From Nitrospira sp. CG24E (lineage in GTDB: Bacteria; Nitrospirota; Nitrospiria; Nitrospirales; Nitrospiraceae), in the NCBI GenBank assembly GCA_002869895.2, contig NEWP02000027.1, forward strand, positions 135,622 to 175,496: a stretch of 39,875 nt of DNA, written 5' to 3'. The translations under genes were made by a program, and so were the position numbers. Positions 16,653 through 32,914 of this stretch are shown piece after piece. The notes below the pieces were generated by a model. It worked only from the letters and a program-made list of their open reading frames with translations. It ran no database searches and was not told the origin of the DNA. Each line of letters starts with the position of its first letter. Positions within the stretch are counted from its first letter, which is position 1.

Positions 16653-17447
16653 ATGAAGAGTGCGTTATCAATTATATTTGGCGTGGCAGCCGTCGCGTTC
16701 GTCGCGGCGCCTCTCACCTCGTTTGCCGGCGGAACGATTGCGGGAAAAGTGACCTTTGCGGGGAAGTCTGAGCAAAAGGAATTTTTGTTCTCGAAGTTCC
16801 CCAACCCCGGTTTTTGTCCCAAGAACCCGCATAAAGAACTGATGGATGGGGATAAGCGGTTCCTGAAGCAGATTGAAGTCGGCAAGGATGGTGGCCTCAA
16901 GAACGCGGTGGTTGCCGTCATTGACGTCGAAGACAAGGCGTTCATGGATGGGTATCAGGGTACTGAGGTGGTTGCGGAATTCTGTGAGTTTCTGCCTTTC
17001 GCCGGAGTGGTGGTGAATAATAAGTCTTTCAAGGTTGTGAACAATGACGCCGATCCGGATGATCCAAAGTCGGTCCAGGGCGTGCTCCACAATCCGCATA
17101 GCTTTGTGGTGAAGGGCACCAGCTCAGCCACGGGTTTCAACATCGGTTTGGCCAAGAAGGGTGACAAGCTCGACAAGCCGGTCGTGTTCCGTGGCGGAGC
17201 AGAGAAGGATGGCTTCTATCGGTTGCAGTGCGACCAGCATGAGTTCATGCAGGGCTTCTTTCTCCCAGTGTCCAGCCCACACTTTGCGGTTGTGAAGGAC
17301 GATGGTTCTTTCGAGATCAAGGATGTGCCAGCCGGCAAGCATAAGGTGGTGGCCTGGCATCCGTTTGCCGCCAAGGGTAAGAAAATTGAGTTTGATGTTG
17401 ACGTGACCGACGGCGGAACCGCCAATCTGAAGGCTGAAATCAAGTAA
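16653..17447 (+). CDS. Secreted cupredoxin-like protein (possible blue copper electron carrier)
   Basis: 264 aa with a signal peptide ending at about SFA-G25. The C-terminal half has a plastocyanin-type pattern: His in NPHSFVV, then C-D-Q-H-E-F-M (RLQCDQHEFMQGFF), the C-x2-H-x2-M ligand loop of type 1 copper sites, followed by DDGSFEIKDVPAGKHKVVAWHP, a carboxypeptidase regulatory-like strand set also seen in methylamine-utilisation-type proteins. The N-terminal half (25-130) has two Cys (FCPKNP and FCEF). A strong promoter, AAGGAGG before the ATG and a perfect terminator suggest high single-gene expression. An electron-carrier role between nitrite oxidoreductase, cytochromes and oxidase is inference. 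Confidence 0.8.
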   Translation: MKSALSIIFGVAAVAFVAAPLTSFAGGTIAGKVTFAGKSEQKEFLFSKFPNPGFCPKNPHKELMDGDKRFLKQIEVGKDGGLKNAVVAVIDVEDKAFMDGYQGTEVVAEFCEFLPFAGVVVNNKSFKVVNNDADPDDPKSVQGVLHNPHSFVVKGTSSATGFNIGLAKKGDKLDKPVVFRGGAEKDGFYRLQCDQHEFMQGFFLPVSSPHFAVVKDDGSFEIKDVPAGKHKVVAWHPFAAKGKKIEFDVDVTDGGTANLKAEIK

Positions 17448-18713: not shown

Positions 18714-19430
18714 ATGGCTGAGTGGCTGAGAGAGGCGGGGTTTTTCGGGACCCATGCCACGGTCGGAGCGGACATTAGTCAGCTCATGGCGACGCTCTTT
18801 ACGGGGCTCTTCGTGATCGGTTGGATTCAGGCGCGGAGACGCCGGGCCGATGCCCATCATTGGATGATGTTTGGTGGGATGATCGCCATGTTGGCGTTTT
18901 TCATCAGTTACTACCTATTTCGACAATTAGGCGTATTGGCGTTTGAAGGCAAAGAGGGTTTCGGTGGGTCTGAAGCCCTCTACCATAATGTATTCATTCC
19001 CATCCTGATCGTTCATATCGTGCTGGTGGTCGTTGGGTTGATTATGGCGGTCTACATGATTGTCCTGGGGTTCCGAGCCCAGTTGATCGAGCAGGGGCGA
19101 CGGACATTGAGCGATCGTGTCCTGCAAACGACCTGGGGAAAGATCGGGGTGATCTTCGGTGCGGTCTGTCTGCCGGTGGTGGTCTACCTGTTGTATCTGC
19201 TGGGCGTCGATCGTCTTCGGATGGGCCGGCTCGTCGTATGGGCCGGATTTCTCGCCATTGTTGCGGTTGTGTTCGCCGTGGAGATGACCATCCAGCGTCT
19301 GTGGCCGGACGGTGGGCACCGCCACCGTGCACTCGGACGTTTTACGATGGCTATCTACTGCATTCTGTTTGTGACGGGAACGACGACCTACACGATGCTC
19401 TACCTTCTCTATCCGGGAAAGATCGGATGA
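18714..19430 (+). CDS. DUF420-family membrane protein
   Basis: 238 aa with about six membrane spans. HHWMMFGGMIAML, VFIPILIVHIVLVVVG, then a late HRALGRFTMAIYCILFVTG follow the pattern of DUF420 (YozB/CtaM-like) proteins: conserved His residues at the membrane faces and a terminal TGxxxYxxLY motif. Members are linked to haem-copper oxidase assembly in Bacillus-type bacteria. Here it lies upstream of a bd-like oxidase, which supports a role in respiratory complex assembly (inference). Longer than many members because of an inserted middle section. Confidence 0.7.
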   Translation: MAEWLREAGFFGTHATVGADISQLMATLFTGLFVIGWIQARRRRADAHHWMMFGGMIAMLAFFISYYLFRQLGVLAFEGKEGFGGSEALYHNVFIPILIVHIVLVVVGLIMAVYMIVLGFRAQLIEQGRRTLSDRVLQTTWGKIGVIFGAVCLPVVVYLLYLLGVDRLRMGRLVVWAGFLAIVAVVFAVEMTIQRLWPDGGHRHRALGRFTMAIYCILFVTGTTTYTMLYLLYPGKIG

Positions 19431-19543: not shown

Positions 19544-20035
19544 ATGCTGACCTGTGGCTGTGGTCGCTGGATGCATACGGAGGGGATTGAAGAACGTTCC
19601 TATGGCGATGGGATTTCTCAATGGTTCGTTCGGTCGGAATGTCGTGGCTGTGGGCTCAAAGTAGGGGTCGATGTTCCTGCCGGTCAACCAGGGAGACTGG
19701 TCGATCGGATGATGTGGACAGACGAAGCGATTCATCGACTGGATCGCATGCCTCCGTACCTTGCTCCGCTGGTGCGTCGCGAGGTTGAGCAAGACGTGCG
19801 GGTGAGGGGAGAGCGGGTCATCACCCACGATACATTGCTCCGTCCAAGAACCGGCGAACGCATCGAGTGGGATCTGGATGCCGAGCGCCGATTGGACAGG
19901 GTGCCGGCGCCGGTACGGGCCATGGCCCGTATTGAGTTAGAGCGGACCGCCGCCGATCGCGGAGAGCAACGCATCACCGTGGCCCTGATGGAAGAAGTGA
20001 AGGCGCGCTACTTCGGAATGGGCTCGAAACAGTGA
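19544..20035 (+). CDS. Zinc-finger protein with two PCP_red domains
   Basis: 163 aa. The N terminus carries a likely zinc site (C4, C6, C33, C36). Two tandem helical repeats follow: about 58-100 (TDEAIHRLDRMPPYLAPLVRREVE, RGERVITHDTL) and about 110-158 (DAERRLDRVPAPVRAMARIELE, RGEQRITVALMEEV). Both follow the PCP_red pattern, named after the C-terminal piece of light-independent protochlorophyllide reductase subunit B. In non-photosynthetic bacteria the domain occurs alone or with other domains; its role is unknown to me. It lies 113 bases after the DUF420 gene in the same direction. The gap contains degenerate gtgatg and ttcacg word repeats. Confidence 0.72.
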   Translation: MLTCGCGRWMHTEGIEERSYGDGISQWFVRSECRGCGLKVGVDVPAGQPGRLVDRMMWTDEAIHRLDRMPPYLAPLVRREVEQDVRVRGERVITHDTLLRPRTGERIEWDLDAERRLDRVPAPVRAMARIELERTAADRGEQRITVALMEEVKARYFGMGSKQ

Positions 20036-21209: not shown

Positions 21210-23084
21210 ATGGTCATGAAGCAGAGAGCGCACAGGGTCATCGGGTATGCAGTTCTACTAGTAGCTATTTTTTCCGCTTCAATAATTGGTTGGGGCCTGT
21301 ACAGCCAATCCTTTGCCGAGAGTAGCACCGATCTCTATTTCAAGACCCCAGGAACTCCTCAAGGTCCTTCGGTTCCTTCTCCAGAGGAGACTGTCTATTC
21401 GCGCATCGGGTCCTTCGATAGTCGATTGATCGTATGGTTCGTCACACAACTCCACACCTACTTCGGAGGGTTTGTTCTCGCGTTGCCGATTTTTTGTGTG
21501 TTGCTGGAATTTCTTGGGCTCAGAACGAAAAAGCCCGAGCTCGCGCTTCGCTACGACGGTCTCGCTCGCGATTTGGCGAAAGTGGCTCTGCTCTCCCTCT
21601 CGGTCACGGCTGTGGTTGGGAGCGTCATGCTGGGGATCTTTCTCTATTTTTACCCGAGCTTCATGCGGTACATGGGCGGGACATTCAAGACCTTCATGCC
21701 GATCTATGCGTTCGTGTTCTTCGGAGAATCGGCGCTGCTCATTACCTATTACTATAGCTGGAACCGGCTGGTTGAGCCGGCTTCGAAGTGGGCTCATGCG
21801 TCGATCGGTTTGTTGAGCAATCTCTTTGGGACAGCCTTGCTGCTCTTGGCCAACGCCTGGTCGGCCTTCATGATGGCGCCGGCTGGCGTCGATGCGCAGG
21901 GCCAGTATTTGGGAAACGGGTGGCATCTGCTCCATTCGGCCTTATGGAATCCATTGAACGTCCATCGCTTCCTGGCAAACATCATGTCCGGTGGCGCGGT
22001 GGTGATGGCCTACGCTTGTTATCGATTCTTCACCAGCAAGTCAGAGAAAGAGAGCGCCTATTTTGATTGGGTCGGGCATATCTTCTTATTTGTCACGGTG
22101 ATCGCATTGTTACCCATGCCCTTTGCCGGCTACTGGTTGATGCGGTCGGTCTACGCATTCAGCCAGAATATGGGAGTGACGATGATGGGGGGGTTGCTCA
22201 CCTGGCTCTTTGTCGTGCAGGCTATCCTGATCGGCGTCCTCTTCCTCGGAATCAATTTTTATCTTTGGCAGAGTATGGCTCGCCTTCAGGGGGGTAATCG
22301 GTATCAGCCCTATTACCAAATGCTCCTCTCGGTATTTATGGTGGCCTTGGTTATTTGGCTGCCGCCGCACACCGTGTTCATGTCGGCCAGTGAAGTGAAG
22401 GCCATGGGTGGAGCGCAACATCCCGTAGTCGGCAACTATGGAGTGATGTCGGCAAAGAATGGCGCGGTCAATATCATGATTCTCGTCACCACCATGAGTT
22501 TCCTGTACTACCGTCGCGCCAATCGAACGATGGTTGTGTCTTGGGCCAAGAAGGGGAACATGCTCATCGGTCTGTTGTTCGTTCTGGGGGCGCTCAACAT
22601 TATCTGGCTTTCCGTCTATGGGTATTATCTGCCGGCGAAGCTTCGCGTCGGGCTGTCGACGCCGCAAGCGGCAACCACGTTGACGGTTCTCGTGGTCGGA
22701 GTGATCATCAATCGTATGATGCTCAAGGGCTCGGTCCTCCATGGGCCGATCCAGTGGGGAAAGATTTCTCTGAGGGGCATGGCAGGTTTATTCGGACTGG
22801 CCGCAGCATTTACGTGGGTCATGGGCCTCATGGGTTATATCCGCTCCTCCGGGCGGTTGGCCTGGCACGTGAGTGAGTTGATGGCCGATGTTTCGCCCTG
22901 GGCCTTTACACCGGACTTTGCGTTTGCTGCCAAGATGGTCACGCTCAATATGATGGTGTTCTGGGGAGCGGTGCTCGTCCTATTCTGGATGTGTCAGCGA
23001 GATCAGTCGCCGGCGAAGGGAGCAGAGGTGGCAGTGGAGAATACGAGGGTGCTGGCGCCGCCATCCTCGTCACAAGAGGCATAA
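21210..23084 (+). CDS. Cytochrome bd-like oxidase core subunit, first paralogue
   Basis: 624 aa, about 14 membrane spans. It resembles CydA in the N-terminal H82 (TQLHTYFGGF) and the NAWSAFMMAPAG stretch, but lacks the usual GRQPW Q-loop signature. It shares H239, H242, H252 (WHLLHSALWNPLNVHR), H387 (PPHT), H404 (AQHPVVGNYGVMSAKNG) and H553 (AWHVSE) with the paralogue at 26672. Such bd-like proteins in Nitrospira genomes have been proposed as unusual terminal oxidases. The N terminus has a signal-like or membrane segment. Directly follows the unknown membrane protein; no cytochrome c genes are nearby in this half. Confidence 0.85.
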   Translation: MVMKQRAHRVIGYAVLLVAIFSASIIGWGLYSQSFAESSTDLYFKTPGTPQGPSVPSPEETVYSRIGSFDSRLIVWFVTQLHTYFGGFVLALPIFCVLLEFLGLRTKKPELALRYDGLARDLAKVALLSLSVTAVVGSVMLGIFLYFYPSFMRYMGGTFKTFMPIYAFVFFGESALLITYYYSWNRLVEPASKWAHASIGLLSNLFGTALLLLANAWSAFMMAPAGVDAQGQYLGNGWHLLHSALWNPLNVHRFLANIMSGGAVVMAYACYRFFTSKSEKESAYFDWVGHIFLFVTVIALLPMPFAGYWLMRSVYAFSQNMGVTMMGGLLTWLFVVQAILIGVLFLGINFYLWQSMARLQGGNRYQPYYQMLLSVFMVALVIWLPPHTVFMSASEVKAMGGAQHPVVGNYGVMSAKNGAVNIMILVTTMSFLYYRRANRTMVVSWAKKGNMLIGLLFVLGALNIIWLSVYGYYLPAKLRVGLSTPQAATTLTVLVVGVIINRMMLKGSVLHGPIQWGKISLRGMAGLFGLAAAFTWVMGLMGYIRSSGRLAWHVSELMADVSPWAFTPDFAFAAKMVTLNMMVFWGAVLVLFWMCQRDQSPAKGAEVAVENTRVLAPPSSSQEA

Positions 23085-24186: not shown

Positions 24187-25110
24187 ATGGAAAACAAGGG
24201 GCTGATCATCGGATCGATCATCTTTGTCTTTGGGTGCTTCTTTCTGATGATTAGTTTGCTGGTATATGAGTCGTATAAAGCGAAGCAGATCAAAGCGTTG
24301 GCTGCGTCGATCAAGACGGAAGCTCGTCCTGCGACGGCCAGCGCAGCCTCGCTGGATTACTCCATGTATAAAACGAAGATCGGCGATGAAGGCCGAGAAA
24401 TGGTGCAGGTCCCCGAAGGCCCGTTCATCATGGGCAGCAAAGACGGCGACCCGGATGAGGCGCCGGAGCGTCAAACGTATCTCAGGGCATTCTATATGGA
24501 CAAAAAAGAGGTGTCGCAAGAGGAATATGCGCGATTCGCCAAGATGACCAGGCGTCCGTTGCCCAAGATTGAAGTGTTTGAAGACGATCAATCCAAACTG
24601 CTGCGGCCTGAATTTGCGGCGATGAGCATGACCTGGGAAGAGGCCTCGGCCTATTGCAAATGGGCGGGGAAACGCCTTCCCACCGAAGCGGAATGGGAAA
24701 AAGCCGGCCGTGGCGAAGGAAAGCGTAAGTACGCGTGGGGTGATACCTTCATGAACGGCCGTGCCAATGCGAATGTGGATGGGAGTGAAGACGGGTTTCG
24801 GTATTTGGCCCCTCCCGGGTCGTTCGAGACGGGGAGAAGCCCCTACGGGATTTATGACATGACCGGAAATGTCGCCGAGTGGGTTGCCGATTCGTACGAT
24901 GAACATTACTACCAGAAGGCGTCCTACCGCGATCCGAAAGGGCCGGAGCCGGTCGATTTGAAAGTCGTGCGGGGAGGCTCATGGCGGGAGACCGAACATA
25001 ATGCCCGGCTCTCCAAGCGATTTGCCGCCAAGCACTGGAGGACGGACATTACCATCGGGTTTCGCTGTGCAAGCGATGTGGAGGGTGGCGAGAGCCCTGC
25101 GCCTTCATAA
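24187..25110 (+). CDS. Membrane-anchored FGE-fold protein, first copy
   Basis: 307 aa. One N-terminal transmembrane anchor (about 4-28), a linker, then a formylglycine-generating-enzyme-type (SUMF1) domain: MVQVPEGPFIMGS, DKKEVSQEEYARF, AYCKWAGKRLPTEAEWEKAGRG, GIYDMTGNVAEWVADS, VRGGSW, IGFRCA. The Cys pair that does catalysis in true FGE (the MCHRSYC region) is absent; the same place reads RETEHNARLSKRFAAKH. It is therefore probably a binding or accessory domain, as in several non-sulfatase relatives. No sulfatase gene is seen nearby. Confidence 0.88.
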   Translation: MENKGLIIGSIIFVFGCFFLMISLLVYESYKAKQIKALAASIKTEARPATASAASLDYSMYKTKIGDEGREMVQVPEGPFIMGSKDGDPDEAPERQTYLRAFYMDKKEVSQEEYARFAKMTRRPLPKIEVFEDDQSKLLRPEFAAMSMTWEEASAYCKWAGKRLPTEAEWEKAGRGEGKRKYAWGDTFMNGRANANVDGSEDGFRYLAPPGSFETGRSPYGIYDMTGNVAEWVADSYDEHYYQKASYRDPKGPEPVDLKVVRGGSWRETEHNARLSKRFAAKHWRTDITIGFRCASDVEGGESPAPS

Positions 25111-25115
25111 GAGCC

Positions 25116-26009
25116 ATGCTCGAAACCAAATTCAAGCTTCTCTTCCTTTTCGCTATCCTGGCGTTCGCTGCGATTCCCATCATGGGCATCTTTCGCGGCA
25201 GCATGCTGACTCCGTTCGAAAAATCTTCAGATGACTCTCCGATAGTAAGTCCATCGGGGTCGTCCGATCCCCAGTCGCAGGCGGCTCCCGAAGAGCCAAT
25301 TGTGGAGGAAATGATCACGATTCCGGCAGGACCCTTTATTCGCGGGACTGATCAAGGGGGGTTCGATGAGCTCCCGCAACGCACGCTGATACTGAATGCC
25401 TTTGCCATCGATCGGTACGAAGTGACGAACTTTCAGTACCAGCAGTTTGTGAATGTGACCGGACATCGTAAATCTGGTCCTCCCGCCCGCTATGCCAAGA
25501 ACATGAGCAAAATGCAGGGTATCAATCAGCCGGTGGTCTACGTCTCCTGGGAGGATGCGGAGGCCTATTGCAATTGGAAGGGGAAGCGGCTACCGACTGA
25601 AGCAGAGTGGGAGAAGGCCATGCGAGGATCGGATGGCCGTCTGTGGCCCTGGGGTAATGTGGAGAACCCGAATGGGGCAAATTGGGCCAGGGTACAGGAT
25701 GGGTATGAGGTCTCCGCTTCTGTCGGCGCAGTTCAGACCGATAAGAGCCCCTATGGCGTTATGGATGGAGCAGGAAATGTCATGGAATGGGTGGCTGACT
25801 GGTACGCGGAACGCTACTTTGAAGAAGCGCCGGAGCAGAACAGTCCCGGCCCGGAGCATGGCGTATTCCGGGTGCTTCGTGGGGGAGGCTATGCGACCAC
25901 CGGGGCCGATATCCGCATCACCAGCCGGAGTAAAATGGTTCAAGATTTTCGCGATGAAACGATCGGATTTCGCTGCGCGGCCTCTAGCGAAAAATTAGAA
26001 AATCGCTGA
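25116..26009 (+). CDS. Membrane-anchored FGE-fold protein, second copy
   Basis: 297 aa, same build as the preceding gene: N-terminal anchor (about 6-26), Ser/Pro-rich linker, then FGE-type domain (ITIPAGPFIRGTDQG, DRYEVTNFQYQQF, AYCNWKGKRLPTEAEWEKA, MEWVADWYAERY, LRGGGYAT, IGFRCAA). It also lacks the catalytic Cys pair (GADIRITSRSKMVQDFRDE there). Starts 5 bases after the first copy's stop; clear tandem duplication with divergence. It ends the rightward operon before a convergent small gene. Confidence 0.88.
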   Translation: MLETKFKLLFLFAILAFAAIPIMGIFRGSMLTPFEKSSDDSPIVSPSGSSDPQSQAAPEEPIVEEMITIPAGPFIRGTDQGGFDELPQRTLILNAFAIDRYEVTNFQYQQFVNVTGHRKSGPPARYAKNMSKMQGINQPVVYVSWEDAEAYCNWKGKRLPTEAEWEKAMRGSDGRLWPWGNVENPNGANWARVQDGYEVSASVGAVQTDKSPYGVMDGAGNVMEWVADWYAERYFEEAPEQNSPGPEHGVFRVLRGGGYATTGADIRITSRSKMVQDFRDETIGFRCAASSEKLENR

Positions 26010-26584: not shown

Positions 26585-26671
26585 ATCGAGGGAGAGTCGT
26601 CGTCTGCTTCAATTGAGCTTGTGGAGAAAAATGGCATGAGTTTTTTTCAGAATGCATCAAGGAGGTATCTC

Positions 26672-28585
26672 ATGGGACGTGTAGCCGGGAAGAAGTTACT
26701 CTCAATCATGGCGCTTGTCGCGATGGTTGGCCTTCTCCTGCTCCCCATCGCCGTATCGCTTCCCTCACTGGCTATTGGCGCAGATGCTCCTGATGCGGTG
26801 AAACAGGAAGGGGAGCAGAAGTACGAGAAGGGGCGCGATGTCTATTACAAGACCGAGGGACTGGCAATCGGCGCTCCTGCGCCGAAGACCGTCGACGGGC
26901 CTAAGGACTATCCGCGCTACAACTTTGAGAGCCGTGTCCTGCTCTGGTTTGCGAACCAGCAGCACCTCTATTATGGAAGCTTCGTGCTTGCGGTTCCAAT
27001 CTTTTGCATGGTCATCGAGTTCATGGGCGTCGTCACGAAGGATAAGGCAATGGCGAAGCGGTATGACCAGCTCGCCTATGACTTTATCAAGATCAGCCTG
27101 ACGGCCTATTCACTGACTGCGATTTTAGGCGGTATTCTGATCTTCACCTTCCTCACACTCTATCCCGCATTCTTCGGCTATTTATCCAGTATTTTCCGTC
27201 CGGTCATGCATATCTATGCGCTGATGTTCGTGGCGGAGAGCGGCACCCTCTACATCTACTATTATGGTTGGGACAAGATGAGGGATGGGTTCCTGAAGTG
27301 GATTCATCTGAGCATGTCCGTGATCTTAAACGTAATCGGCACGTTGCTCATGTTCCTGGCGAATTCCTGGATTGGCTTCATGATGTCACCCGCCGGCGTA
27401 GACGAGCAGGGCCGGTTCTTGGGGAACATTTGGCACGTCATCCATACAGCCCTCTGGAATCCACTCAACGTGCACCGGATTTTGGGCAATATGGCGTTCG
27501 GCGGCGGTGTCGTGGCGGCTTACGCGGCGTACAAATTCTTGGCTTCCAAGACCGATGAAGATCGTGCGCACTATGACTGGATGGGTTATATCGCCATGGC
27601 GCTTGGCGTGGCATTCCTCATTCCTCTGCCCTTTGCAGGGTACTGGCTGATGCGGGAAGTCTATGCCTACCGTCAGCAGATGGGGATCACGCTCATGGGC
27701 GGCCTGTTGGCCTGGCTCTTTATCATTCAAGCCACCATGATCGGTATTTTGTTCTTGAGCACGAATTACTATCTCTGGCAAGCCCTTGGCCGTATGCGCG
27801 GCGCTGAGAAATATCAGCGCTACATCAAGTATCTTGTATTCATCCTCTGTTGCGGCTACCTGGTCTTCATTACCCCCCACACCATCGTGATGACCCCGGC
27901 CGAATTGAAGGCCATGGGCGGTCAACAGCATCCGGTGCTGGGAAACTATGGAGTCATGTCGGCCAAAAATGGGGGTATCAACGTCATCATTACCACCACT
28001 ATTTTGAGTTTCGTCTGGTACATGCGAGGCAATAAAGTCTCCACTGTATCCTGGTCAAAGTTCGGTAATATTTTCATGGGGGTCTTCTTTGCCTGCGCCT
28101 ATGTGAACATTATCTGGCTGGCCATTTACGGGTACTATATTCCGGCAAACGTGCGAGTCGGTCTTTCTGTGCCGCAAGTTGCGACAACCCTGTCCTGTCT
28201 CTTCTTTATGTTCCCGCTTAACAGCGCCATGATGAAGGGCGCCAAACAGATGGGGGCCATCGAATGGGGCAAGATCTCCGTTCGTTCGCAATATGCCTTG
28301 ATCATGCTTGCAACCGCCTTTACCTGGATGATGGGGCTAATGGGATACATACGTTCTTCGGTTCGGTTGTTCTGGCATGTGAATGAAATCATGCGCGACA
28401 ACTCGCCCTGGGCCTATACACATACGGTGGGTTTTGCAGCGAACATGATTTCCTTCAATGTATTGTTCTTCTGGGTGAGTATTTTATTCGTCTTCTGGCT
28501 GGGAAGCCTTGGGATGAAGAAGGCTCCTGTTCCAGCGAAGGCAGGGGTTCCGGGCGGTGCACCGCAACCGGCTGCGGGCCACTAA
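26672..28585 (+). CDS. Cytochrome bd-like oxidase core subunit, second paralogue
   Basis: 637 aa, about 14 spans after an N-terminal signal-like segment (LLSIMALVAMVGLLLLPIAVS). AAGGAGG six bases before ATG 26672 decides the start over the upstream GTG and ATG. Conserved with the paralogue at 21210: H98 (NQQHLYYGSF), H255, H258, H268 (WHVIHTALWNPLNVHR), H403 (TPHT), H420 (QQHPVLGNYGVMSAKNG), H569 (FWHVNE). Histidines in the membrane core beyond those of canonical CydA could bind extra haem or copper. In Nitrospira defluvii a bd-like protein of this sort was put forward as the terminal oxidase (from memory). Here it heads a run of three cytochrome c genes, which supports electron input from cytochromes. 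Confidence 0.87.
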   Translation: MGRVAGKKLLSIMALVAMVGLLLLPIAVSLPSLAIGADAPDAVKQEGEQKYEKGRDVYYKTEGLAIGAPAPKTVDGPKDYPRYNFESRVLLWFANQQHLYYGSFVLAVPIFCMVIEFMGVVTKDKAMAKRYDQLAYDFIKISLTAYSLTAILGGILIFTFLTLYPAFFGYLSSIFRPVMHIYALMFVAESGTLYIYYYGWDKMRDGFLKWIHLSMSVILNVIGTLLMFLANSWIGFMMSPAGVDEQGRFLGNIWHVIHTALWNPLNVHRILGNMAFGGGVVAAYAAYKFLASKTDEDRAHYDWMGYIAMALGVAFLIPLPFAGYWLMREVYAYRQQMGITLMGGLLAWLFIIQATMIGILFLSTNYYLWQALGRMRGAEKYQRYIKYLVFILCCGYLVFITPHTIVMTPAELKAMGGQQHPVLGNYGVMSAKNGGINVIITTTILSFVWYMRGNKVSTVSWSKFGNIFMGVFFACAYVNIIWLAIYGYYIPANVRVGLSVPQVATTLSCLFFMFPLNSAMMKGAKQMGAIEWGKISVRSQYALIMLATAFTWMMGLMGYIRSSVRLFWHVNEIMRDNSPWAYTHTVGFAANMISFNVLFFWVSILFVFWLGSLGMKKAPVPAKAGVPGGAPQPAAGH

Positions 28586-28665: not shown

Positions 28666-29979
28666 GTGAGTGAGCTGATAAAGGAAGCTCTAACAATAGG
28701 CTGGCCGTTATTTGCACTGCTTGCCGGTCTGTTCATCTACTCCATCGTGGCAGGGAAGGATGCTGCCGCAAAAAAGAGCGCGATGTTCAAGCTCTTTATC
28801 GGCACCCTTGGCGCATGTTTGTTGTTACTGGCCATTGCGCATTACAAGGGCAGCTTCTATGAAGCGAACCGGATGCTTCCGGTTTCCTTGGTCCTCATCA
28901 CATCGGCCTGTTTTATGCTGGGGATCTATTTCCCCAATCATGCAGCACTGCTGAAGATCGGTGGCTTCATGTTCCTGGTCGCTGCCGGCCTTTCAGGCTA
29001 TGGAAATTGGCTGCCGCAGGTCGAAGGTGGGTTTCCGCCCAAGGAAGAGAAGCTGCAATATGAGGCAATGACCGCCCAGCAGCTTGCCGATGAAGGGGAG
29101 AAGATTATTTTTGGCGGAATTGGAAAGAACAAAGAGCAGGGTGCGGTCGGTAAAGGACAATGTCCGCTTTGTCATGCATTCCACGCAGGGATGCTTGGAG
29201 AACGTGCGCCAAACCTACAGGGGCTTCCAACTCGAGCGGGTAAGGAACGGTTAGAAGATCCAAAGTACAGTAAGGGAAATCCGAAGGGTCGTGAATTTGA
29301 CGATAAAGAAGCATTCCCAGGCGCTGGGACTGCGGAAAATGGGCAGGAGTATATCGCTGAATCCCACGCCTGTCCGAGCTGTTACGTCGTTGTCGGTTAC
29401 GGCGTCAAGGGAACGAACGATAAAACCAGCCCGATGCCCGCGATTCACAAGCCACCGATTTCGTTGAGCCTTCCAGAGTTGGCTGCCGTCGATACCTGGC
29501 TATATTTGCGTGAAGGGGTTGATGCTCCCTCATACGATGAAATCATCAAGTCCTATGAGAAGTTTATTCCTGAGGCAGATAGGCCTAAACCGCAAGATGA
29601 CAAGCCGGCAGGCCCAGCAAGCGCTCTTCTGGCCGATGGTACTGAACCGATCGATGTGATTTTTGCCAAATCAACGTGTATCTTGTGCCATACCATTCCC
29701 GGCATCCCTGGCGCAGTCGGTAAGCAAGGTCCCGTGCTTGAAGAGGGGACCAATGCGCCAAACCGGATCAAGGATCCGGCGTACAAGGGAACTGCGCATA
29801 ACACACAAGAGTACATTATGGAGTCCATCGTATCGCCCAGCGTCTATGTCGTGAAGCCTTTTCCGGACAACTTGATGCCAAAGGAATTCGGGACGAAGCT
29901 GAGCGCAGGGGCGTTAAAAAAGATTGTCGACTATCTGTCACAAGTTAAAGCCGGTTCACCGCCGCCGAAGATTTCATAA
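28666..29979 (+). CDS. Membrane-anchored di-haem cytochrome c
   Basis: 437 aa. Four N-terminal spans (about 8-26, 40-60, 70-90, 95-115) precede a periplasmic part with two haem sites, C166-P-L-C-H170 and C338-I-L-C-H342, each followed by a Pro-rich, duplicated block (KEQGAVGKGQCPLCH versus FAKSTCILCHTIPGIPG; then EYIAES and EYIMES, SPSVYVV). The two halves are thus a domain duplication; a Cys pair C-P-S-C without His (ACPSCYVVVG) marks the first. GTG start at 28666 with AGGAGG 8 bases before it. Probably carries electrons to or from the bd-like subunit. Confidence 0.87.
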   Translation: MSELIKEALTIGWPLFALLAGLFIYSIVAGKDAAAKKSAMFKLFIGTLGACLLLLAIAHYKGSFYEANRMLPVSLVLITSACFMLGIYFPNHAALLKIGGFMFLVAAGLSGYGNWLPQVEGGFPPKEEKLQYEAMTAQQLADEGEKIIFGGIGKNKEQGAVGKGQCPLCHAFHAGMLGERAPNLQGLPTRAGKERLEDPKYSKGNPKGREFDDKEAFPGAGTAENGQEYIAESHACPSCYVVVGYGVKGTNDKTSPMPAIHKPPISLSLPELAAVDTWLYLREGVDAPSYDEIIKSYEKFIPEADRPKPQDDKPAGPASALLADGTEPIDVIFAKSTCILCHTIPGIPGAVGKQGPVLEEGTNAPNRIKDPAYKGTAHNTQEYIMESIVSPSVYVVKPFPDNLMPKEFGTKLSAGALKKIVDYLSQVKAGSPPPKIS

Positions 29980-30036: not shown

Positions 30037-31074
30037 ATGAAAGCTATAATGTCGCTCGGGGCACTTATAGGGGTAGCGGGATTACTCCTGCTTTCCGGAA
30101 TGATTGTCGGTATCGTTCCGTCAGATACTGTGCGCCTGATCGAAGGCTACATGCCGGTTCAAGTGATCGCGGAACTGATCCTCTTCGTGGCAGGCTTTAC
30201 CGGTATCAGCTACATGATGTCCGCCATGGGAATGACCTTCCCACGGTTTTGGCAAGGGATCAGTTGTTGGGCCTTCGTTCTCCTCTATTTGAAGTTTCGT
30301 GTCTATCCCCCGATTCCCTTCAGCGTTCGCGCGATGTACGGGACAGTCTCCCTGGTAGCTGTGTTCATGTGGGTTTCCGCCAACGAGGAAGATTGGCAGA
30401 AATTCAAACAGCCGATCATGAACGTCCTGGACGCCAAGACCGGGGGCAACCGGTTGTTGCGCTATGCGTACCTCATTATCCTGCCGATCTTGATCGGCGG
30501 TTTTTCATACAATGCCATGGTCCCAAAATCGGAAGAGCCTATCGAGTTGAGAACGGTGCATCCGGCCCCGCCAGCCAGCACGAAGGTGCATGGAAAGACC
30601 TATACGCTTCAAACATCCCAGAACCCTTACCGAGTCAATCCTGAAGGAAAGTACGATCAGGAATACAGTAACGCCAATATTGTCGAACAGGGTATGGGGC
30701 GCTTGATGAAGCCGAACGCAAACCCATGGGATAAGGACGCTCAAGGGTATCTCAAGTATGTGCGTGAGGGCGGCGAAATTTTCTATCAAAACTGCCACTT
30801 CTGTCATGGAGACAATTTGAATGGCCGCGGCCTCCATGCCTTCGCATTCAATCCTATCCCGGCAAATTTTACTGACCCAGGCACAATCGCCCAGTTACAA
30901 GAGACATTCATTTTCTGGCGTGTTTCCAAAGGAGGAATCGGCTTACCGAACGAAGGATTCCCCTGGGCCTCTGTCATGCCGCCATGGGAACAGCATTTGA
31001 CCGTGGATGAAATTTGGAAAGTCGTCATGTTTGAATATTGGCACACGGGGTATTACCCACGCACTTGGGACTGA
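30037..31074 (+). CDS. Membrane-bound mono-haem cytochrome c
   Basis: 345 aa. Five hydrophobic segments in the first 180 residues (for example LGALIGVAGLLLLSGMIVGIV, VIAELILFVAGFTGISYMM, LIILPILIGGFSYNAM) precede a periplasmic cytochrome c domain with C253-H-F-C-H257 and a likely Met ligand in SVMPPWEQHL. ATG 30037 preceded by GGAGCT. It lies 57 bases after the di-haem gene, in the same operon. Confidence 0.85.
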   Translation: MKAIMSLGALIGVAGLLLLSGMIVGIVPSDTVRLIEGYMPVQVIAELILFVAGFTGISYMMSAMGMTFPRFWQGISCWAFVLLYLKFRVYPPIPFSVRAMYGTVSLVAVFMWVSANEEDWQKFKQPIMNVLDAKTGGNRLLRYAYLIILPILIGGFSYNAMVPKSEEPIELRTVHPAPPASTKVHGKTYTLQTSQNPYRVNPEGKYDQEYSNANIVEQGMGRLMKPNANPWDKDAQGYLKYVREGGEIFYQNCHFCHGDNLNGRGLHAFAFNPIPANFTDPGTIAQLQETFIFWRVSKGGIGLPNEGFPWASVMPPWEQHLTVDEIWKVVMFEYWHTGYYPRTWD

Positions 31075-31132: not shown

Positions 31133-32914
31133 ATGAAGAATTCGTTTAGTCTGAAGGCGGGGGTATTATCCCTAACCGCCTTTGGAGTCATCTTGCTCTC
31201 CGGAAACGCCGGAGGTTTGGCCTTTGCCGCAGATTCACTTCCTGCCGGCTTTAAGGCTGGAGCGCTTGCACCGGAACCGTCTGCAGACATGATCGAAGCA
31301 GGAAAACGGGTCTACTTCACCAAGTGTGTCTGGTGTCACGGTGTAGATGGCGCCGGCGATGGCCCAGGCGCCGATCGTCTCTGGCCCCGTCCCCGCAATT
31401 TCAATCAGGGGACGTTCAAGATTCGTCATACGGCCAGCGGAGAGTTGCCCCTGTTCGACGCCAAGAAACCGGTTGAGGGCCAGAACGATCTGTTTGCGAC
31501 TGTGACCCACGGGTTGCCAGGCTCTGCCATGCCGCCATGGGAAGGTATTCTGACAGAGGAGCAGCGGCTTCAAGTCTTGTCGTTTGTGACGACGCAGCTT
31601 GTCAAAGATCGAAAATTTACCGACACGAAGTCAGAGAGCCAGACGGTGTTGCAGTTGGCCGAGTTGGCGCCGATTGCCGCGTCTGAAGAGAGTTTGAAAA
31701 AAGGGGCCGAGCTGATTGTCGAGAAGAAGTGTATTGAATGTCATGGGGTCGAAGGCCGTGGTGACGGCAATGCGTTCAATCTGAAGGATGACTGGGGTTT
31801 TTCAATACAACCGGCCAATTGGCACAAGTGTTGGAACTTTAGAGGCAGTCGGCAGGATCCCTATAATGTGAAGAATATCTTCCGGACATTTTCCACCGGG
31901 GTCAATGGTACTCCGATGCCATCATTCGCCGACAACACGACAGTCGAAGAGCGATGGCACATTGCAAACTTTGTGAACTCCCTCTGTGAACGGGATGGAG
32001 AGGGGAAGCCTCTCCCAATCGATCCGCAGGCTGACAAACCTAAAATCAACTTTGTGGTGCCCTCAGGGAAGGTTGAAGGAGAGATTTCAGCTGATCCGGA
32101 GAATGAATTGTGGACAAAGAGGGCCAGGCGGTATATTGCAATGGGTGGTCAGATCACTCACAAGCCCAGAAACTTCGTGAACCGGATCGACGATCTCTGG
32201 GTAAAGTCGCTTTACAATGAAACGCATGTTGTGTTCATGTTCCAGTGGGATGATCGTACGAAGAGTGTAGCCGAAGGAAAGTTGCCTTGGGCTCCGACCT
32301 CAGTCAACGTCGAAGTCAAGGAACAGGATCCAAAGACCGGCGAAGAGGGTTCTATTGCCGCGCATCAGAATAATTACACGGTGTATAACGATGCAGTGGC
32401 CATGGAGACTGCTATAAAGTGGAAAGAGCTTCCCGCGCCGATTAAGCCGCGCTATCTCTTCGGCAGCAATGAACAGTTCCCGATGGACATTGTGAAGTGG
32501 GAGGCTGATGGTTCGTTGCGCGCCTTCAAAGGAACCGGATGGGATAAAGACTTTGAACAACGCTTCGACTACGAAGAGAACATCAAGTTACTCTTCTCGG
32601 AATGGAAAAATGGCCGATGGACAGTGATCATTCAGCGTCCGTTGGGCGATAAGAAGGAACAGGATTACGACTCGGATACGTTCTTTGAAATGGGACAATA
32701 CATTCCCACCGTGTTCTTTGCCTGGGATGGGCACAATGGAGATGCAGGGAGAAAGATGGCCGTCTCGGCTTTCTACTACACCTTCTTGGAGCCGCCGACC
32801 CCGCAAGAGGCCTATATTTATCCGGTAGCCATTGCGGCCGGTGTCGTCCTTCTGGAAGGTTGGATTCTGACCAGACGATCGAACAAGCGGAAGGCAAAGG
32901 CCCTTTCTCGCTAG
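31133..32914 (+). CDS. Multi-domain cytochrome c with NXR gamma-like haem b domain
   Basis: 593 aa. Signal peptide (residues 1-33), cytochrome c domain 1 with C65-V-W-C-H69 and Met in SAMPPWEG, cytochrome c domain 2 with C200-I-E-C-H204 and Met in TPMPSF, then a domain of about residues 310-555 resembling the ethylbenzene dehydrogenase/DMSO-reductase-type gamma subunit (EB_dh; WVKSLYNETHVVFMFQWDD, FGSNEQFPMDI, WTVIIQRPL). That family holds a haem b; in Nitrospira it is known as the NXR gamma subunit. A C-terminal anchor (YIYPVAIAAGVVLLEGWIL) ends the protein. Last gene of the cytochrome block; a strong terminator follows. Confidence 0.87.
   Translation: MKNSFSLKAGVLSLTAFGVILLSGNAGGLAFAADSLPAGFKAGALAPEPSADMIEAGKRVYFTKCVWCHGVDGAGDGPGADRLWPRPRNFNQGTFKIRHTASGELPLFDAKKPVEGQNDLFATVTHGLPGSAMPPWEGILTEEQRLQVLSFVTTQLVKDRKFTDTKSESQTVLQLAELAPIAASEESLKKGAELIVEKKCIECHGVEGRGDGNAFNLKDDWGFSIQPANWHKCWNFRGSRQDPYNVKNIFRTFSTGVNGTPMPSFADNTTVEERWHIANFVNSLCERDGEGKPLPIDPQADKPKINFVVPSGKVEGEISADPENELWTKRARRYIAMGGQITHKPRNFVNRIDDLWVKSLYNETHVVFMFQWDDRTKSVAEGKLPWAPTSVNVEVKEQDPKTGEEGSIAAHQNNYTVYNDAVAMETAIKWKELPAPIKPRYLFGSNEQFPMDIVKWEADGSLRAFKGTGWDKDFEQRFDYEENIKLLFSEWKNGRWTVIIQRPLGDKKEQDYDSDTFFEMGQYIPTVFFAWDGHNGDAGRKMAVSAFYYTFLEPPTPQEAYIYPVAIAAGVVLLEGWILTRRSNKRKAKALSR

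Follow-up and report, generated by a model that had tools for sequence, protein, structure and literature searches.

The CydA subunit of cytochrome bd oxidase binds haem d through H19, haem b558 through H186 and M393, and haem b595 through E445, and H125 of the M. smegmatis protein (H126 in E. coli) belongs to a proton path (PMC8324918, PMC6853902). The superfamily also includes the OR-N family (Murali 2021, as presented in PMC10839748 and PMC12342949), which takes in bd-like proteins of the type treated here and for which cytochrome c is given as the likely electron donor; according to PMC10839748, O2 reduction by OR-N proteins is without experimental confirmation. In Nitrospira moscoviensis the gene for bd-like 3 is clustered with those for two c cytochromes and an alternative NxrC, and bd-like 4 is located a few genes off (PMC6606698). 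The same cluster has been reported in anaerobic anammox bacteria (PMC3578206), and a complex designated TO_1 has been described in the Manganitrophaceae and their order (PMC9040806). For the paralogue resembling NIDE0901 a haem-copper hybrid was proposed by Lucker 2010, as cited in PMC6606698 and PMC8026999, and in 2020 it was reported that in the bd-like protein of the present cluster Q takes the place of one CuB histidine, and F that of the high-spin haem histidine (PMC8026999). The initial annotation of our sequence, which pointed to extra histidines in a bd-like oxidase and to a possible hybrid of the bd and haem-copper types, is a correct observation on a known family, but the interpretation had been put forward in 2010 for the paralogue, and bd-like_3 has lost two of the proposed ligands.

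Gene cluster and family of the bd-like_3 protein

The window, i.e. the whole stretch of 39,875 nucleotides that was analysed, contains two bd-like genes and the following neighbours:

16653-17447, + strand: secreted cupredoxin-like protein, a counterpart of which adjoins the cluster in loci L187 and L188 (synteny)
18714-19430, + strand: DUF420 (CtaM-like) membrane protein (PF04238, E=3.7e-18), the sole copy in the genome (genome search)
21210-23084, + strand: paralogue of the bd-like_4 type, found in our sample only in the order Nitrospirales
26672-28585, + strand: OR-N protein, a bd-like CydA homologue of the bd-like_3 type, 637 aa from ATG or 654 aa from GTG at 26621
28666-29979, + strand: c-type cytochrome with two CxxCH motifs (dihaem c; Pfam, sequence)
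30037-31074, + strand: membrane c-type cytochrome with one CxxCH motif (monohaem c; Pfam, sequence)
31133-32914, + strand: NxrC-like protein (alt_NxrC) with two c-haem domains and an ethylbenzene-dehydrogenase-type haem b domain (Pfam, NCBIfam)

The last four genes listed, in which the bd-like_3 gene is followed by those for the dihaem c, the monohaem c and the NxrC-like protein, form a conserved cluster. The cupredoxin-like assignment of 16653-17447 was read from the sequence, and Pfam gives weak beta-sandwich matches. The open reading frame of bd-like_3 was confirmed, extending from 26621 to 28585 with the GTG start or from 26672 to 28585 with the ATG start, on which the residue numbering is based. 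Its product shows 91% identity to the counterpart in N. moscoviensis (locus L057), the nearest well-described genome among the matches, and the bd-like_4 product 75%. Both are orthologues of the bd-like proteins of that species (PMC6606698), with the same two c cytochromes and NxrC-like protein as neighbours and no difference of note, the gene numbers 3 and 4 being matched by neighbourhood and not by locus tag. The two proteins in the window are 46% identical to each other.

The Pfam scan gave a match to PF01654 (Cyt_bd_oxida_I, E=1.2e-19) in the N-terminal part of bd-like_3 only, and in a fold comparison all ten CydA chains were matched with Z values of 17.6-19.5. An N-terminal helical core in which H98 and H268 correspond to the ligands H19 and H186 places the protein in the cytochrome bd superfamily. 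The canonical quinol-oxidising CydA (qOR) has a Q-loop with GRQPW, which is here changed to R-x-x-W, with TM6 followed by helices, and the profile alignment has no Glu at the position of E445, the ligand of haem b595, with moderate alignment confidence. The features found are those of OR-N, namely a bd core without a quinol site, occurrence in Nitrospirota/Nitrospinota and adjoining c-type cytochromes; the missing quinol site, the c-type cytochrome partners and the presence in Nitrospirota are shared with the family as it is portrayed in PMC10839748 and PMC12342949. The haem-copper oxidase family PF00115 (COX1) was not matched by the bd-like_3 protein in the Pfam scan, nor by any protein of the genome, and of the ligands of that family (three CuB histidines and the high-spin haem histidine) two published positions are occupied by Q and F. 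The gene product is related to cytochrome bd oxidase and belongs to a type that is known but has not been characterised.

Ligand positions and extra histidines

The positions discussed below, with residues counted from ATG 26672, are:

26963-26965, + strand: H98, corresponding to E. coli CydA H19, the haem d ligand (alignments; role from PMC8324918)
27305-27307, + strand: H212, corresponding to E. coli H126 / M. smegmatis H125 of the proton path (alignments; role from PMC8324918)
27434-27445, + strand: H255 and H258 in the TM4-TM5 loop, conserved to 93%/100% (H255) and 99%/85% (H258) in the two paralogue families
27473-27475, + strand: H268 of NVHR, corresponding to E. coli H186, the haem b558 ligand (alignments)
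27680-27871, + strand: two predicted membrane helices (residues 337-374 and 378-400) replacing the Q-loop (helix prediction on the model; segment order in the short homologue L192)
27878-27880, + strand: H403 of a [W/F]-x-T-P-H motif, extra and invariant, found also in paralogue N1 of the same genome
27929-27931, + strand: H420 (QHP), extra, preceded by Q here and by H in paralogue N2 and the deep clade
27956-27958, + strand: M429 of GVMSAK, most likely corresponding to E. coli M393, the b558 ligand (alignments; fold models suggest M342)
28034-28279, + strand: putative inserted helix hairpin (residues 455-536) between canonical TM7 and TM8, missing in L192
28364-28378, + strand: R565-L-F-W568-H569, a GRQPW remnant followed by the extra H569 (canonical TM7-9 profile)

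With the CydA of E. coli MG1655 as reference, sequence alignments and profile alignments give the same result for the first part of the protein, where H98 corresponds to H19, H212 to H126, H268 to H186 and E189 to E107, and the position of E99 is a tyrosine. The canonical CydA proteins of E. coli, M. smegmatis and G. thermodenitrificans thus have in common with bd-like_3 the N-terminal core and equivalents of H19, H126, H186, E107, R448 and W451, whereas bd-like_3 has no Q-loop, has E445 and E99 replaced or lost, and carries additional helices and histidines.

The GRQPW quinol loop, which the initial annotation regarded as absent, is indeed missing as an exact string, but R565 and W568 can be recognised as its R and W. 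When 61 diverse homologues and 356 decoys were searched with a profile of canonical CydA TM7-TM9, the best match of the TM7-9 or TM8-9 profile was located over R-x-x-W-H in 46-52 of the homologues and over W-x-x-P-H in none, with best scores of 13.1 and 10.8 bits against a decoy maximum of 6.1. The match is carried by deeper relatives, and the bd-like_3 copy itself has negative bit scores with the canonical C-terminal profile. In the profile alignment GRQPW-xVYG is paired with GGRQFWHVYG of a deep relative, leaving E445 unpaired.

In L192 the profile of the 376-458 hairpin (PH/GVMSAK type) directly precedes the TM8-9 profile, so that the second helix of this hairpin is most simply canonical TM7 and M429 would be M393, and the hairpin 455-536 would be an insertion. 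In the structural alignments canonical TM7 is matched by helix 337-374, and the Met ligand would accordingly be M342, but the register was inconsistent between the two fold models. As both models have a mean pLDDT of only 62-63, with most of the loop 402-424 below 50, the sequence evidence for M429 was weighted above them, although not as settled, and M429 is most likely the counterpart of M393. A direct replacement of E445 by H403 was suggested by the resemblance of [W]-x-x-x-H403 to W441-x-x-x-E445 and by the helix order in the models; it is weakened because the canonical TM8-9 profile was never matched there but at R-x-x-W-H, and because L192 suggests another helix order. An internal duplication of the two hairpins did not score above decoys. 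The N1 paralogue (L010:6504-8204) keeps the PH and AK motifs and has an extra hairpin before them, not after, indicating that the insertion site differs between OR-N types.

All six histidines named beforehand (H255, H258, H268, H403, H420 and H569) are found at their positions, and the motifs NPLNVHR, PHT and QHPVLGNYGVMSAKNG are present as quoted. Histidines are indeed shared by both paralogues, but they number eight instead of seven, namely H98, H212 and these six. Motifs and histidines held to be foreign to CydA are so for H403, H420 and H569, which stay unmatched in the CydA alignment; H98, H212 and H268 occupy ordinary bd positions, as M429 most likely does. H255 and H258, also taken for extra core histidines, vary between lineages and are mostly missing in the N2 family and in deep members, so that a universal site is unlikely to include them. 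By alignment, about three histidines are genuinely extra.

In a 63-sequence alignment of both families, no variation is seen at H98, H212, H255, H268, H403, H420 and H569, H258 is conserved to more than 90%, and in a wider set of 108 and 67 sequences H403, H420 and H569 reach 100% in both paralogue families. H403 and H569 do not vary over 53 diverse homologues, and H420 hardly does; in this set conservation of at least 95% is seen for 6 of 11 core histidines, compared to 80 of the remaining 520 residues (Fisher p = 0.004, with relatedness ignored). With the ordinary bd ligands sorted from the extra histidines, mutagenesis and the question of cofactors can concentrate on H403, H420 and H569. 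Judged from the predicted helix order, all three would be situated at periplasmic helix ends, on the same side as the haems of CydA and the vacated Q-loop.

Possible roles of the extra histidines and of the complex

The reading that we prefer, with a probability of about 0.45, is that bd-like_3 is a ligand-swapped bd-fold subunit of a periplasm-facing respiratory complex, in which the c cytochromes or the NxrC-like protein and not quinol donate electrons, and H403, H420 and H569 hold or line a third haem. The complex would consist of the OR-N subunit, the dihaem c, the monohaem c and the NxrC-like haem b/c protein, with electrons entering from the c-type cytochromes or the NxrC-like subunit. 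Two classical haem sites would be kept, with H98, H268 and M429 as the likely Met ligand, as would the proton path at H212. H403, H420 and H569 would surround the former place of E445 and the Q-loop, and the third haem, at the b595 position, would most likely be held by them or have its pocket lined by them. Such an arrangement would make the protein a ligand-swapped bd protein and not a bd/haem-copper chimera.

Nitrospira drive nitrite oxidation and comammox, and the genome of the window, in which neither COX1 nor a match to E. coli CydA was found, has four bd-like proteins only, indicating that its oxygen respiration presumably runs through these uncharacterised proteins. The presence of the cluster in anaerobic anammox bacteria argues against O2 as the only acceptor. 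It is also among the reasons for considering that the complex, instead of reducing O2, transfers electrons between NXR, cytochrome c and quinone in reverse electron transport, with redox-inactive extra histidines; a role like that of alternative complex III has been suggested (PMC3578206, PMC6606698). The loss of two haem-copper-like ligands in bd-like_3 would fit, and membrane subunits of alternative complex III were matched in the fold comparison with Z values of 11.5-12.7, which is below CydA and at a level common for helical bundles. Two genomes, G129 and G270, would speak against this role. Both keep the whole operon, have the bd-like_3 type as their only bd-like protein and are without a full COX1, and their matches to the type II DMSO reductase alpha model are weak and generic for the molybdopterin family, with no clear NxrA. 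The search with E. coli CydA gave nothing in G129, and G270 is not among the genomes listed. With the missing quinol site as a further point against it, we regard reverse electron transport as unlikely. From the intact operon and the weak, generic molybdopterin matches in these two genomes, it follows that the link between the cluster and nitrite oxidation is not a strict one, which is a new point. The operon with the c cytochromes and the NxrC-like protein is kept at loci L187 and L188, in genomes with only such weak, generic matches. Both loci, like the findings in G129 and G270, can be likened, by description only, to TO_1 (PMC9040806), in which a periplasmic cytochrome b accompanies the bd-like protein and which occurs in related genomes of non-nitrite-oxidisers. 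Class I ribonucleotide reductase and Fe/Mn SOD were tried as aerobic markers in G129 and G270 and are uninformative, as they are also absent from the genome of the window.

A bd/haem-copper hybrid, with the extra histidines as CuB-like ligands of a copper ion, or of haem and copper, as proposed for the NIDE0901-like paralogue, we consider doubtful for bd-like_3. The NIDE0901-like putative terminal oxidase N2, encoded on another contig of the same genome, is 43% identical to bd-like_3 and shares the core and the PH, HP and WH histidines, but it has HH and HWH, with histidine at both the 419 and the 567 positions, where bd-like_3 has QH and FWH. Our alignment, with QHP for HHP and FWH for HWH, matches the description in PMC8026999, whose Q and F are most naturally Q419 and F567; the bd-like_4 paralogue has Q and A. 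Since two of the proposed ligand positions carry Q and F, bd-like_3 is a weaker candidate for a hybrid, and N2 fits the hypothesis better. Among the best structural matches, which are CydA chains, there is no haem-copper subunit I, although a match missing from that list proves little and cannot exclude one. HH and HWH occur both in the N2 family and in a deep clade. In a midpoint-rooted tree of 59 homologues, all from Nitrospirota, the HH/HWH clade (G012, G030 and G007, with G069 keeping HWH) is sister to both window families and N2 is placed outside, which suggests that HH/HWH is ancestral and has decayed in both window copies; this point is also new. H419 was probably lost on the shared stem of the window families, and H567 probably later and more than once, as several related genomes still have Q together with HWH.

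The only evidence here that leans towards copper is indirect, namely the cupredoxin-like neighbour and the linkage to DUF420, the latter being a new point. The DUF420 gene lies beside the cluster in the genome of the window, which has no haem-copper oxidase, and in G081 and G282; in G129 and G270 (loci L187 and L188) it follows shortly after the NxrC-like gene. DUF420/CtaM is required for haem-copper oxidases in Bacillus and Staphylococcus and has been proposed to be a copper exporter (PMC13344008, PMC4958251), but the function of DUF420 itself is unsettled. Through this linkage the long-standing copper idea becomes accessible to genetics. For SCO proteins, weak redoxin-level matches only were obtained, outside G000. 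It is conceivable, if quite improbable, that ancestral OR-N proteins with HH...HWH were bd-fold copper O2 reductases independent of the haem-copper oxidases, with a histidine metal site at the extra helices loaded by CtaM/DUF420, and that the window copies are partly decayed forms. Very unlikely, finally, is a structural or proton-path-lining role of the extra histidines without any cofactor, for although H255 and H258 differ between lineages and the conserved H212 already has a proton-path counterpart (PMC8324918), H403 and H569 are invariant and H420 nearly so over the 53 homologues, and H569 adjoins the GRQPW remnant.

Divergent copies and other genes of the neighbourhood

No relatives were found in viral contigs. 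Among the loci fetched, the bd-like_4 type evolves much faster, with identities of 67% and up compared to 85% and up for bd-like_3. Two adjacent ORFs in locus L189 encode divergent bd-like copies in which the E107 position is occupied by F and the M393 position by E, which suggests that haem sites have been lost or changed. Upstream of the bd-like_4 gene, 19544-20035 encodes a small protein that carries a PCP_red (proto-chlorophyllide reductase 57 kD) domain, in a presumed non-phototrophic host. Two adjoining proteins of the FGE-sulfatase type (formylglycine-generating enzyme-like) are encoded by 24187-25110 and 25116-26009, between both bd-like genes, and counterparts flank the bd-like cluster in L187 and L188 too.
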